Assembly: GCA_030628225.1 (NCBI GenBank)
Contig: DAOVRJ010000124.1
Span: forward strand, 1 to 7,055
DNA: 7,055 nt
Direction of reading: 5' to 3'
Origin: Candidatus Zixiibacteriota bacterium
GTDB lineage: Bacteria; SM23-81
Shown here: positions 19 to 7,055 of the stretch, piece by piece
Layout: every line of letters starts with the position of its first letter
Position numbering within the stretch: the first letter of the stretch is position 1
Position numbers and translations under genes: made by a program
Notes under the pieces: model-generated
Told to the model about the DNA's origin: nothing
Seen by the model: the letters and a program-made list of their open reading frames with translations, nothing else
The model's database searches: none

Positions 19-157
19 CGAGGGGGACACTTCCCCCTTCCAACCCAACCCAACCAGGGGTTAGGGTTTAGGGGAAAACAAGAAAACCATCTTCTATCAC
101 AGTGAATTACATGTTGGGAGGTAGAGGCGGGGTCACTAACCCCTGATCCCTAAATCC
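19..157 (+). repeat. Structured intergenic repeat element, copy A
   Basis: One of two copies of the same element; the other is at 6885-7044 in inverted orientation. In order it holds a hairpin (7-bp stem AGGGGGA/TCCCCCT, 21-27 with 32-38), a C-rich tract with CCAAC repeats (40-54), TTAGGG-like heptads (57-74), a core, and CCCTAA-like heptads (136-157). The stretch 69-144 matches the other copy at 67 of 76 positions by hand alignment, with the first 31 bases identical. The outer block 19-50 matches at 28 of 32. GGGGTTAG (57-64) is exactly complementary to CTAACCCC (136-143), so the core can sit in the loop of a stem. No protein is encoded. Similarity stops abruptly outside base 19, which suggests a true element boundary. 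Function unknown; bases 1-18 hold nothing recognisable. Confidence 0.75.
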
Positions 158-168
158 TTTCCGTACAG

Positions 169-207
169 AAAAAACAGCCCGTCGGGCGGTGAAAGACCCA
201 ACGGGCT
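169..207 (-). terminator. Rho-independent terminator of the TPR lipoprotein gene
   Basis: Read on the minus strand, a 7-bp GC-rich stem (AGCCCGT, 201-207, pairing with ACGGGCT, 176-182) is followed after one base by six T residues (169-174). It begins 26 bases past the stop codon of the TPR gene, the position expected for an intrinsic terminator. It also separates that gene from the repeat element at the window's left end. Confidence 0.8.
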
Positions 208-2760: not shown

Positions 2761-2854
2761 TCTTGTCTCTCCGGTGAGAAAGGCGGATTCTGGATGAGTC
2801 GATCAAGGCTCGTCAGATACTCTAGGATTTCCCCACCATCCCTCTTCCCCACTC

Positions 2855-3070
2855 CAGGGCTTAGGGACCCTGCACCCCCCCTCCCCACCAGGGATCAGGG
2901 AAAATACAGAGCTTATTAAAAAACTCAGGCGCACTGACTATCCGGATAGAACGGAATCACGAAATCTTTATCCCCTAACCCTAAATCCTAACTCCTCTTT
3001 TCAACGAATACGAGCTACGAACACGATCACATTATTTCCCTAACACCTAACTCCCTAATCCCTAACCCCT
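2855..3070. repeat. Period-7 degenerate repeats in the metV-metF spacer
   Basis: The 354-bp spacer 2761-3114 has no credible gene. It holds several short tandem tracts with 7-bp spacing: CAGGGAT/CAGGGAA (2889-2902), CCTAAAT/CCTAACT with neighbours (2973-3000), CGAGCTA/CGAACAC (3004-3024) and CCCTAAC/ACCTAAC with relatives (3038-3066, one unit of 8 bp). The CCCTAA family is the one seen in the elements at both window ends. Bases 2761-2854 and 3071-3114 show nothing beyond the metF ribosome-binding site. Confidence 0.65.
2918..2949 (-). promoter_or_regulatory. 12-bp palindrome and weak terminator-like hairpin upstream of metF
   Basis: CTATCCGGATAG (2938-2949) is a perfect 12-bp palindrome of the size of a dimeric repressor site. 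Directly downstream on the minus strand a 4-bp stem (TCAG/CTGA, 2925-2937) is followed by six T residues (2918-2923). Together they lie about midway between metV and metF and could be an operator, an attenuator or a weak terminator. The stem is short and this may be chance. Confidence 0.25.
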
Positions 3071-3114
3071 CTCTTTTCACAGATATGTGTTTTTCTTTCC
3101 AGCATCCTGCATCT

Positions 3115-3783
3115 TTACTTGGCGATTCCCTTCCTGGGAATATGCAGAGTCAGGTTGCCGGGCTTTACCGTCCTCTCAAAATCCTTGGGCGGCTGATAGC
3201 GGCGTAGGCGATCCAGCTCACCCCGCTTCTTGAGGCGCTCGTAGATCTCCACCCAGCAACATTCCCGCTGGGGATCCACCTCGCACTGGCCATCTTTGGC
3301 CCCGCCGCAGGGTCCGTTGATCAACCCTTTGGGGCACCTCGTCACCGGGCAGATGCCCCGGGTCAGGTCCAGGATGCACTGACCGCACATGGAGCAGCGC
3401 TCCGTAAACTCCCCGTGCCGCCGGATATTGGCCAAAAACAGGCTGTCCAGGCCCGGATGAACCGTCTTGTCCGTCACCTGAGAGGCCGACTGGACGCCGG
3501 CGCCGCAGGCCAAGATCAGCAGGCCATCGGCCTGACCGATCTGCTCCTTCAGCTCGTTGAAGATGGAGCGGACCTTTAATGTGTGACAGGCCACGTCGAT
3601 GACCACGGTGCCCACCACCTTCTTTCCGTGGCTGTTGAGCTTCTCCTCCATCTCCCACACCTCCTCCTCCCCCCCTGTATGACAGATGGTGGCACAGTCA
3701 CCGCAGCCGACGATGAAGATCTTTTCCTCCCCCTCCAGGGATTGCAGAATTTCCTGGAAGGGCTTTTGTTTGCTGGCGATCAT
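3115..3783 (-). CDS. metV: Cys-rich methylenetetrahydrofolate reductase partner subunit (MetV)
   Basis: A 222-residue protein with the MTHFR_C family signature. In acetogens MetV binds MetF and is thought to pass electrons to its flavin. The N-terminal part (20-115) is Rossmann-like with GCGDCATIC (26-34), Cys66 and LACGAG (91-96). The C-terminal part (130-182) carries the family pattern: CSMCGQC (130-136), GICPVTRCPKG (143-153), NGPCGG (156-161), Cys167 and ECCW (174-177). The 14 cysteines suggest bound iron-sulfur or zinc, which sequence alone cannot decide. The ATG at 3783 is the only plausible start, but it has only a weak ribosome-binding site (TGGA, 8 bases upstream), because repeat tracts run close to it. 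metV is usually adjacent to or overlapping metF; here 354 bp intervene. Confidence 0.92.
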   Translation of the reverse strand: MIASKQKPFQEILQSLEGEEKIFIVGCGDCATICHTGGEEEVWEMEEKLNSHGKKVVGTVVIDVACHTLKVRSIFNELKEQIGQADGLLILACGAGVQSASQVTDKTVHPGLDSLFLANIRRHGEFTERCSMCGQCILDLTRGICPVTRCPKGLINGPCGGAKDGQCEVDPQRECCWVEIYERLKKRGELDRLRRYQPPKDFERTVKPGNLTLHIPRKGIAK

Positions 3784-3815
3784 GGTTTAAATCCAGGGTT
3801 ATGAGTCGAAAAAAA

Positions 3816-4083
3816 GACGGATACTGGATACTGGATTCTTGTTCCCCGACCCCCTATCACCGATCCTCGATCCTGGATCCTGGTGAAAGGCTGAGGTTCG
3901 AGAATCGAGAGTCGAGATTCGTGAAACCGCCGGGAATCGGGAACCCTCCCCCCAACCACCCCATTGGCAGTCGGCAGGAAGCAGCGGCAATAGCAATGGC
4001 AGTGGCAATTATGGCCGAGCTTCGAACATCGAGTTTCCAGCTTCGTTACGAGCCTCGACACCGACAAATGAGCATCGAGCATC
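3816..4083. repeat. Dense period-7 mosaic repeats upstream of metV
   Basis: Most of this 352-bp spacer consists of consecutive degenerate heptad tracts that switch family: ACTGGAT twice (3823-3836), ATCCTGG twice (3870-3883), TTCGAGA/ATCGAGA and two more units (3897-3924), CGGGAAT/CGGGAAC (3931-3944), TGGCAGT/CGGCAGG (3965-3978), then four 6-bp GGCAAT-like units (3986-4009), TTCGAAC/ATCGAGT and relatives (4021-4069), and GAGCATC twice (4070-4083). ORFs through this DNA on both strands only translate the repeats. No terminator or clear promoter is visible. Confidence 0.75.
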
Positions 4084-4094
4084 CCATTTCTCTC

Positions 4095-4130
4095 AACTCT
4101 CTAAACTCTCTCAACTCTCTAAACTCCTTA
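4095..4130. repeat. 9-bp tandem repeat, four units
   Basis: Four consecutive 9-bp units follow the pattern AACTCTCTA, alternating A and C in the last base, with the last unit diverged to AACTCCTTA. The array ends five bases from the stop codon of the starch-binding-like lipoprotein gene, where a terminator might have been expected. It differs in period from the heptad tracts next to it. Confidence 0.85.
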
Positions 4131-4135
4131 CTTCC

Positions 4136-5164
4136 TCAACGCACCGGCACGTGCCAATCCTGGGAACGGTTGTCGTCCCGGCTCTGACCGTCGGTGAAGA
4201 CAAAATCCACGACTGTGACATCCTGATCGGTGGGAACCACCACCCACCACGATCCCCCGGATAGCTGCTCCATGAGAGTCTGAACAGCCTGGCCATCCCC
4301 AAACTCACTGGTCCCAGGCGGAATCACCCGGGGCACCGTCCAGCCATTAACGCCCCAGTGTAAGAAAATCTGCTCGGCATCCTCTAGGGGACCTCCCCGG
4401 GGATCATAGAGGATGGCGATCTCCTGCCCCCTGCGCGGCTCCTCCGGTTCCCAGTAGACCTGGCCTGTGCCATTTTCGCGCGCCGGGGTTTCCAAGGCCG
4501 CCCGGCGGAACCAGGGATCGTTGGTGTCCAGGACAAAGGACACCAGCCGGGCTTCCAGAATCTCAACTACCGAACTGTAATAGCCCAAACCGTCCGGCTC
4601 GTATATCCTGCTGTCCACATCGACAAACCATTCCGGCAACCCGTTGATGATATACTTGTAGCTGTACCTGCCGGCAGGAAGCGGCGCAGCGGTCTCCCAC
4701 AGGCCATCGCCGTCATCATCGGTCATGGACAAAGCCTTTTGGGGATCCCAATCCATGAAATCCCCCACCACCAGGACCTGCCACACGTCCTCGGGGATGG
4801 AATAGCGCTTCAGCTCCACCTCCAAGTAAATCCTCTCATCCTCCTGCAGATGGAACTGATAGAAATAGGGGTCATAGCGGGGCTTGATGATCTCCAGATA
4901 ATACTCCCCCGGCAGGAGCTCCTCAAACCGAAACTCTCCTCTCTGGCTCAGGGATAGCTCCCTGATCTCCTCCGACCCCTGTTCATCCTCCTGGCAGATC
5001 AAGCTGACGTCCACATCCTCAAAACCGCGGCCAGACTCCAGGATGACCCTGCCTGTGAGGGTTCCCTCATCCGGAAAGGAAAGCCGGACGCCCTGATAGA
5101 TGTGGCCGCAGCCTAAAAACAGCAGAACGGGGAACAACCAGAGCCATACGGGGATGCTCCTCAT
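4136..5164 (-). CDS. Lipoprotein with starch/glycogen-binding-like domains
   Basis: A 342-residue surface or periplasmic lipoprotein with three predicted beta-sandwich modules and no catalytic domain. The signal peptide ends in FLGC (Cys19). Residues 36-121 resemble a carboxypeptidase-regulatory-like or PEGA domain (GTLTGRVIL start, FEELLPGEYYLEI). Residues 128-203 resemble the CBM48/AMPK glycogen-binding domain (VVGDFMDWDP, 132-141; GRYSYKYIING, 165-175). Residues 234-342 resemble CBM25 (LHWGVNGW, 268-275; DFVFTDG then DDNRSQDW, 320-337). The usual WDNN of the last motif reads DDN, so sugar binding there may be weakened. Binding of alpha-glucan is inferred. Possible starts are GTG 5221, GTG 5185 and ATG 5164; I chose 5164 because the lipoprotein signal starts there. 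A strong GGAGGAG (5199-5205) is too far from it, and 13 bases from GTG 5185. Confidence 0.82.
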   Translation of the reverse strand: MRSIPVWLWLFPVLLFLGCGHIYQGVRLSFPDEGTLTGRVILESGRGFEDVDVSLICQEDEQGSEEIRELSLSQRGEFRFEELLPGEYYLEIIKPRYDPYFYQFHLQEDERIYLEVELKRYSIPEDVWQVLVVGDFMDWDPQKALSMTDDDGDGLWETAAPLPAGRYSYKYIINGLPEWFVDVDSRIYEPDGLGYYSSVVEILEARLVSFVLDTNDPWFRRAALETPARENGTGQVYWEPEEPRRGQEIAILYDPRGGPLEDAEQIFLHWGVNGWTVPRVIPPGTSEFGDGQAVQTLMEQLSGGSWWVVVPTDQDVTVVDFVFTDGQSRDDNRSQDWHVPVR

Positions 5165-5196
5165 CGTCTTGCCCGCCTTGCCCACGGCACCGTCAT
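5161..5196 (-). CDS. Possible 11-residue leader ORF overlapping the lipoprotein start
   Basis: The strongest ribosome-binding site of this region, GGAGGAG (5199-5205), lies 2-4 bases before an ATG at 5196 that opens the reading frame MTVPWARRARR. Its TGA overlaps the lipoprotein ATG as ATGA (5161-5164), the usual arrangement of translational coupling. It could be a leader peptide, or the ribosome-binding site may really serve the in-frame GTG at 5185. Weakly supported. Confidence 0.2.
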   Translation of the reverse strand: MTVPWARRARR

Positions 5197-5249
5197 AGCT
5201 CCTCCGGACGGAAACCCACACCCGCTTTCAATCTTCGGCGCCCTTCCCT

Positions 5250-5452
5250 TCGAATCTCGAATCTCGAGTCTCGGCTTTTGCATTGTCTTTGCTTTAACCA
5301 GGATCCAGGATCCGAGCGATGAACTCGGAGTTCGGAGCTCGGAACGATTCGAGCGTGGAATGCGGAACGCGGAACTGAAAAGCAAAAACAATAATATCTG
5401 GGATGGAGTGAGGGAAAACTCCGCACTCCGAGTTCCCAGCTCCGCGCTCAAA
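5250..5452. repeat. Period-7 mosaic repeats upstream of the lipoprotein gene
   Basis: The 5222-5464 region up to the aminotransferase stop holds tandem heptads: TCGAATC twice plus two related units (5250-5277), CCAGGAT twice (5298-5311), AACTCGG/AGTTCGG and one more (5322-5342), AATGCGG/AACGCGG (5359-5372), and ACTCCGC/ACTCCGA with three relatives (5418-5452). GAACTCGGAGT (5321-5331) and ACTCCGAGTTC (5425-5435) form an 11-bp inverted repeat around an A-rich centre that includes TATTAT on the minus strand, a possible but unsupported -10 box. Confidence 0.72.
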
Positions 5453-5464
5453 AGGCTCTCTACT

Positions 5465-6796: not shown

Positions 6797-6884
6797 GTGG
6801 TTCTCCTTGTGGGTTGAGTGTTATGGTGATTGTTTGCTTTTGTTCAGCATAAAGAGATCAGAGATCAGGGACCCCGGAAAGACA

Positions 6885-6915
6885 GGGATTAGGGGGCAGG
6901 GGTTAGGGATTAGGG
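6885..6915 (+). other. G-quadruplex-capable telomere-like tract
   Basis: Five runs of three or more G (6885-6887, 6892-6896, 6899-6902, 6906-6908, 6913-6915) are separated by loops of 2-4 bases, including TTA and ATTA. This fits the usual G3N1-7 quadruplex rule. The G-rich strand is the template for the aminotransferase, about 90-110 bases upstream of its start. It also forms one arm of repeat element copy B. Confidence 0.6.
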
Positions 6916-7044
6916 ACCCCGTCTCCACTCCCCAACATGCCATTCACTATGATAGAAGATGGTTTTCTTGTTTTCCCCTAACCCCTAAACCCTCTATCCT
7001 AAATGCTGGTGTGGATGGATTGGGAGGGGGAAGTTTCCCCCTCG
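6885..7044 (-). repeat. Structured intergenic repeat element, copy B (inverted)
   Basis: This is the inverted partner of the element at 19-157. Read on the minus strand it begins with a near-perfect palindrome (9-bp arms GAGGGGGAA/TTCCCCCTC, 7024-7043), then a C-rich tract, TTAGGG-like heptads (6975-6999), the 76-bp conserved core (6905-6980) and CCCTAA-like heptads. CCCTAACCCC (6976-6985) and GGGGTTAGGG (6899-6908) are perfectly complementary over 10 bp and enclose the core. It lies upstream of the aminotransferase and may be in its leader or promoter region, though I see no convincing -35/-10 pair. Bases 6797-6884 hold the ribosome-binding site and short GAGATCA repeats (near 6854-6867). 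Confidence 0.75.
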
Positions 7045-7055
7045 CTGCAGCCAGC

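Follow-up and report, generated by a model that had tools for sequence, protein, structure and literature searches.

Over-representation of heptanucleotides in bacterial DNA has been noted since 2007, and to our knowledge it has no accepted mechanism. MITEs, REP/BIME units and foldback elements are short, dispersed and non-coding and carry inverted arms, which in foldback elements consist of short tandem repeats. Already described are a bacterial heptanucleotide excess, families built on one word, the GGGNATC repeat, the cross-phylum word TAACTGA and the sites of Geobacter (PMC4692102, PMC4679880, PMC2700814). In Geobacter metallireducens these are paired tandem hepta- and octanucleotide sites and 49 GGACCGG elements (PMC2700814).

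We analysed a stretch of 7,055 nt (the window), with attention to its spacer at 3784-4135. This spacer lies directly upstream of the start (3783, minus strand) of metV (3115..3783, minus strand), an open reading frame encoding a methylene-tetrahydrofolate reductase C-terminal domain protein (Pfam PF12225, E 5.9e-36) whose product is 87% identical to its counterpart in the MAG Zixibacteria SM23_81, the nearest named relative. On its other side the spacer is bounded by the stop codon, at 4136, of a minus-strand gene for a CBM-domain lipoprotein (4136-5221). The spacer upstream of metV in SM23_81 is without the tracts of 3784-4135, and words of the same families occur in the SM23_81 metV-metF spacer. 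The CBM-domain lipoprotein gene matches two SM23_81 stretches (L019:2199-2936 and 3704-4512), and in that genome a different gene, of 443 aa, adjoins metV in its place; comparison of the two gene orders points to a local rearrangement at the heptad-bearing spacer. A search of the spacer for a promoter or terminator found neither, nor any promoter-like site. A known structured RNA was discarded after an Rfam search gave no match at E up to 1, and a plasmid- or phage-borne origin after a sequence search gave no match.

The initial annotation had described nearly the whole spacer as DNA of period 7. Lag identity within 3784-4135 is 0.48 at lag 7 and 0.35 at lag 14, against 0.22-0.29 at the remaining lags from 2 to 15, and relative to 300 dinucleotide shuffles these two values stand at z +9.6 and z +4.2. 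The period-7 signal is strong, but lag-7 match runs cover about half of the spacer, 173 of 352 bp (shuffles: mean 1.9, maximum 36), at 3819-3883, 3893-3924, 3931-3943, 4016-4044, 4070-4083 and 4090-4109, the last of these within a period-9 array. The rest belongs to other periods (45 bp of period 9, 21 bp of period 6) or is barely repetitive, as are the roughly 40 bp at 3947-3985, in which a weak GGCAGTC pair stands alone. Elsewhere in the window a lag-7 excess recurs in the spacers at 5222-5464 (z +8.3), 6797-7055 (z +6.0) and 2761-3114 (z +4.3), and the same autocorrelation revealed none in spacer 1677-1890 or in the five genes of the window.

Neither of the two refuting outcomes named in the initial annotation occurred: the lag-7 excess is present genome-wide in intergenic DNA, and tracts are not confined to this locus. 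Intergenic DNA of the same genome shows a lag-7 excess over shuffled sequence of z +28 over 41 contigs, which holds at z +16 in 30 contigs picked without regard to tracts. In 38 kb of intergenic DNA we counted 87 period-7 tracts against 0.2 in shuffles, and the same scan gave 16 tracts of period 9 and values near zero for periods 5, 6, 8 and 10-13. Tract density in the unselected contigs is about 256 per Mb, and tracts sit almost exclusively between genes, the own-genome figures here and below being based on about 334 kb plus flanks of matches. Chance or low complexity is ruled out by the shuffles together with a reversed-pattern control in the genome scans.

It had also been proposed that the period is conserved and the word is not. 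This part of the proposal fails: six word families, A (TCCAGNA), B (CGAGANT), C (CTCCGNR), D (CCCTAAY), E (TGMAAAR) and F (CGGGAAY), hold 180 of 200 distinct own-genome tracts (90%), and words vary at a few fixed positions. Position 6 of family A takes all four bases (36/26/22/16%), position 3 is C in 79%, and the remaining five positions are at least 98% constant. Family B varies at one position, and families C, D, E and F each show partial variation at two to four positions; within families most non-variable letters are 90-100% constant. These values describe tracts found by lag-7 matching and assigned at an 80% match, a selection that favours regular tracts and does not force changes onto particular positions, except at letters left free in the reference word. 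The word TAACTGA is absent among the own-genome tracts listed. Neither is seven a universal period, given that the spacer also contains a period-9 and a period-6 family and that other genomes carry families of period 8.

For most of the spacer, counterparts exist at other places in the genome, and its pieces, all annotated on the plus strand, can be named in order. About nine heptads of family A, read as GGATNCT (the reverse complement of TCCAGNA), run in one continuous register at 3819..3883 (lag-7 run with a score of 25; also found by TRF), and pieces of this tract recur at other genome loci. Family B (CGAGANT) follows at 3893..3924, with 19-28 similar places at other own-genome loci, and family F (CGGGAAT), recognized from a lag-7 run and the own-genome family assignment, at 3931..3946. 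The order A tract, GTGAAAGGCTGAGG, B tract, GTGAAACCG, F tract has conserved linkers, and the 73 bp of this block at 3869..3941 are 96% identical to a place on contig C276, a sign of recent copying. Beyond it lie a period-6 tract of GGCAAT/GGCAGT (GGCART; 3987..4007; period scan and TRF) and GAGCTTC/GAGCATC heptads around the 25-bp linker GTTACGAGCYTCGACACCGACAAAY (4016..4083); the linker is found at five other own-genome loci, and a related motif in the sister genome G001. The last piece, a period-9 CTCTCTAAA tract at 4082..4126 (TRF), is mainly an array of TCTCTAAAC and has about 60 other places in own-genome data. Several word families are present, as first annotated, and the impression that they are unrelated stems from different dispersed elements having accumulated in one spacer.

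Conserved cores were recognized in three families (D, AAAAGCAAGAAGACCATGTTCTATCACAGTGAGTTGCATG; C, GAAAAGCAAAAACAATAATATCTGGGATGGAGTG; A, GGTAAGTGAAATGCTYGAYTCTGAGTATATGCCAGGTTGACTCTGCATTTTCCGAGG), each flanked by inverted heptad arrays that form the arms of an element. Many of the tracts in the genome are arms of this kind. The window holds a complete element C at 5310..5455 (plus strand), in which a CGGARCT arm, the core and an inverted CTCCGNR arm follow one another, with 34 matches in the genome. Next to it, at 5250..5313 (minus strand), a B tract (5250-5273) and an A tract (5298-5313) lie in the orientation opposite to those in spacer 3784-4135 (TRF). Element D, with a GGGNTTA arm, the core GGAAAACAAGAAAACCATCTTCTATCACAGTGAATTACATG and a CCCTAAY arm, is at 40..170 (plus strand; 29 matches; alignment), and a second copy, inverted and 86% identical over 96 nt, is at 6884..7010 (minus strand); D-family tracts also lie downstream of metV at 2969..3070 (minus strand; TRF and period-7 scan). 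The two D copies occupy opposite ends of the contig, and of 60 contig ends, each taken as 400 bp, 15 contain a period-7 tract, compared with 10% of interior intervals; these repeats may break the assembly at contig ends.

Searches with one copy returned 29 matches for D, 34 for C and 49 for A, arm-only matches included, and alignable copies number 19, 13 and 13, respectively. Between dispersed copies of one element the commonest difference is a whole number of words: the distribution of net length differences has its main peak at 7 (208 cases, against 54 at 6 and 42 at 8) and a second one at 14, although a peak at 7 is partly expected where gap lengths come from aligned periodic DNA and from pairs of copies that are not independent. 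This agrees with the fixed 7-bp step proposed at the outset, and the arm of element D has two to four words between conserved ends. Arm polarity is single. The G-rich word comes first within the element in the window's own genome (G000) and in the pairs found in G001, G019, G179 and G186, and the few exceptions join neighbouring elements. Because a search of 192 other genomes, the sister genus among them, did not recover the D core, the elements are lineage-specific. At an orthologous spacer whose flanking genes are 84 and 83% identical, G000 has a D element (372 bp) and the sister genus G001 has none (139 bp), with the promoter-proximal 65 bp conserved between the two; this presence/absence evidence concerns one locus, between genera. 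A second orthologous spacer carries AGAGATC words in G000 (L141:2423-2640) and CGTTGAT in the sister genus (L047:6342-6473), each with an inverse copy. The elements are dispersed, as follows from the many copies with shared cores and linkers, the 96% block on another contig and the presence/absence at the orthologous spacer, and a copying process was part of what the initial annotation had suggested.

Two of the words are also found in unrelated bacteria, where mostly the same positions are free. Word A, searched as three units, is present in 4 of 192 other genomes (G097, G151, G179 and G186), the reversed-word control being zero in these. Outside G000 the word is free again at position 6, and position 3 is the second-most variable, in a search that left position 6 open and position 3 not. 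Word E is present in 10 other genomes, with a control of zero in the unrelated G058, G097, G109, G133, G173 and G186 and in the sister genome G001; the three other genomes have control matches too and were not counted. The two words co-occur in G097 and G186. Genomes with word A or E also carry further words of periods 7 and 8, and about eighteen other genomes, sampled by one contig each, have hardly any such words. The period-8 families that stand beside period-7 ones in G097 and G151 (L224-L233), for example AAGTAGGA and AATCCAGC, resemble the Geobacter octads.

In G097, G179 and G186 tracts also lie inside conserved genes. In-frame A or E tracts were seen in leuS, nadC, ribD, dapF and glmM (L242:11675, L241:13623, L228:9591, L111:1305-1510 and L237:12452; G186, G097, G179), with three tract additions in the single GlmM protein. 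The GlmM, RibD and NadC tract peptides (SSIQHPASS, SRIQDPGSRI and IQMQNAKCKMKN) align to gaps of solved homologues and are therefore in-frame additions. A literature search for the words and the encoded peptides returned nothing relevant. The recurrence of the words in unrelated bacteria suggests a shared process that would write such words into DNA.

Our reading, held with moderate confidence, is that copies of several short, dispersed, non-coding, MITE-like families, some whole and some partial, have piled up in this spacer. Each family has its own degenerate word, usually of 7 bp (one of 9, one of 6), and in core-bearing families a core of roughly 40-60 bp, specific to the family, is flanked by two inverted arms made of the tandem words. 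The heptad may be the recognition unit of a DNA-binding or mobilizing protein that reads five or six of the seven positions, such that arrays and inverted arms would be kept in working copies, with replication or recombination adding or removing units in situ. Spreading would presumably need an enzyme, and intergenic spacers would be tolerated landing sites in which families accumulate side by side, giving the impression of a period without a fixed word. Overall, the interpretation first given for this spacer is partly supported.

Some observations do not sit easily with a MITE-like origin. In genes of other genomes the A and E tracts stand alone, with no core or inverse arm, and a classical MITE would not leave such isolated tracts. 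For the elements we found neither a target-site duplication nor a dedicated transposase, nor were defined ends found, the ends being blurred by further heptads. Y1 transposases are present in 18 of 21 genomes, heptad-poor ones included, and missing from heptad-rich G097. We rejected Y1/RAYT mobilization because Y1 presence does not track the heptad trait, and REP/RAYT, that is, hairpin units mobilized by Y1, because a Y1 match is missing from G097 and co-variation between arms was not seen. In G000 an IS200-like transposase gene is found between E-family elements (L256:1366-1905) and has hairpin ends of its own (CCCCCGCTCGTGAGCGGGGG); as an insertion beside E elements, it was discarded as their mobilizer.

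Replication slippage with a preferred 7-nt step could instead have amplified local sequence in neutral spacers, the families being expanded seeds copied by recombination; PMC4692102 and PMC4679880 cite Mrazek and co-workers for a polymerase footprint as the origin of such a step. Slippage would fit the 7- and 14-bp differences between copies, the variable base of family A, which neighbouring units share more often than expected at random (0.44 versus 0.27), and words that morph within one register, as at L080:87-149 (CGAGACT, CGGAAAT, CGTGATT, CGTGATG, TGTGAGG, CTGGAAG, CTAGAAA). The LeuRS tract of G186 may also have grown from a native VIQP codon run. We nevertheless regard slippage as unlikely: local seeds should yield as many words as there are loci, yet 90% of tracts fall into six families, two of them common to unrelated bacteria; slippage alone would spread changes over all seven positions, whereas variation is found at fixed ones; and neighbouring units of families B and E share their variable base no more often than expected by chance. 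A similarly low probability goes to one type of machinery, present in scattered uncultured phyla, that would write degenerate heptads (such as TCCAGNA and TGMAAAR, with the same free letters in unrelated phyla) into spacers and even, in frame, into loops of housekeeping enzymes, spacer 3784-4135 then being a record of several words.

The constraint on particular positions within the word would also be expected if the arrays were binding sites of a global regulator or nucleoid protein, selected for motif and spacing. Regulator sites have been proposed for the paired heptads and octads of G. metallireducens, where the same architecture is described (PMC2700814), and for TAACTGA in Beggiatoaceae (PMC4679880), and they would suit the inverted pairs of fixed polarity and variable distance and the almost exclusively intergenic location in the own genome. 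However, the D element is missing from the sister genus at the single orthologous spacer checked, another orthologous spacer has different words in the two genera, spacer 3784-4135 is without a promoter-like site, and tandem, convergent and divergent spacers all carry tracts with no obvious preference, in small numbers. We consider regulator sites improbable, somewhat more so than slippage.

Retention of the tracts for hairpin or cruciform folding is very improbable. Inverted arms are present, and L113 in G179 folds strongly (z -9.8), but spacer 3784-4135 folds no better than shuffles (z -0.55) and four own-genome elements reach z -0.4 to -2.6. Arms within an element match no better than arms of other copies (p 0.64-1.0), so the stems do not co-vary, which makes both hairpin selection and template-switch correction unlikely. 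Templated addition of heptads to broken DNA ends by a reverse transcriptase, telomerase-like or other, with the joining of two such ends leaving G-first inverted arms, is barely credible despite the universal G-first polarity, as in fused telomeres, the resemblance of family D to TTTAGGG and the lone in-frame tract additions in genes of other genomes, since inverted pairs flank conserved cores, which end-joining would not produce, and a search of incomplete genomes for one family, RVT_1, found no reverse transcriptase in tract-bearing G000, G001, G004, G019, G097 and G151.

A genome in which six degenerate words coexist, with shared cores, an orthologous site that lacks the element and two words that recur in unrelated bacteria with similar free positions, offers direct ways to separate slippage from mobile dispersal, and comparison of heptad-bearing genomes by gene presence offers a route to the responsible protein. 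There is a practical side too: conserved MAG proteins gain residues from such tracts, which may also be one cause of contig breaks. In the open-licence literature, preprints excluded, we found no account of single spacers that combine many degenerate words with family-specific cores, or of the same degenerate words in unrelated phyla.

Among described systems, the tracts share with STRR sequences of filamentous cyanobacteria, GGGNATC of Xanthomonas and GGGGAYT of Nostoc a 7-bp unit, an intergenic location and some inverted pairs. As with GGGNATC, the degeneracy of the word falls at a fixed position, and the Xanthomonas repeat word GGGAATC lies within family F (CGGGAAT) (PMC4692102). As in heptanucleotide SSRs, the tandem 7-bp units exceed chance in intergenic DNA, and each family keeps one word, with fixed letters and few free positions. 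The repeats of that report have one word per genome (PMC4692102), whereas here conserved cores and linkers accompany at least six words mixed within a single spacer. Families A, C and D have cores and inverted arms in place of a simple array, and G-quadruplex potential exists at most in families D and F. The TAACTGA repeats of Beggiatoaceae, Cyanobacteria and Bacteroidetes are likewise a 7-bp word across distant phyla with no known vehicle, mostly intergenic and at times in genes, but TAACTGA is an exact word whose single-base variants rarely repeat and which usually lies just upstream of start codons (PMC4679880), in contrast to the degenerate words, many families and inverted arms seen here. 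The G. metallireducens sites comprise several word classes of 7 and 8 bp per genome in paired arrays on opposite strands at variable distance, an arrangement also found here; they are described as regulator binding sites, and the accessible part of that description reports neither shared cores nor presence/absence between genera (PMC2700814). From MITEs, REP/BIME units and foldback elements the present families differ in that no parent transposon, target duplication or REP tetranucleotide was found; they resemble them in being short, dispersed and non-coding, with terminal inverted arms and, at one locus between genera, an insertion polymorphism at an orthologous site.
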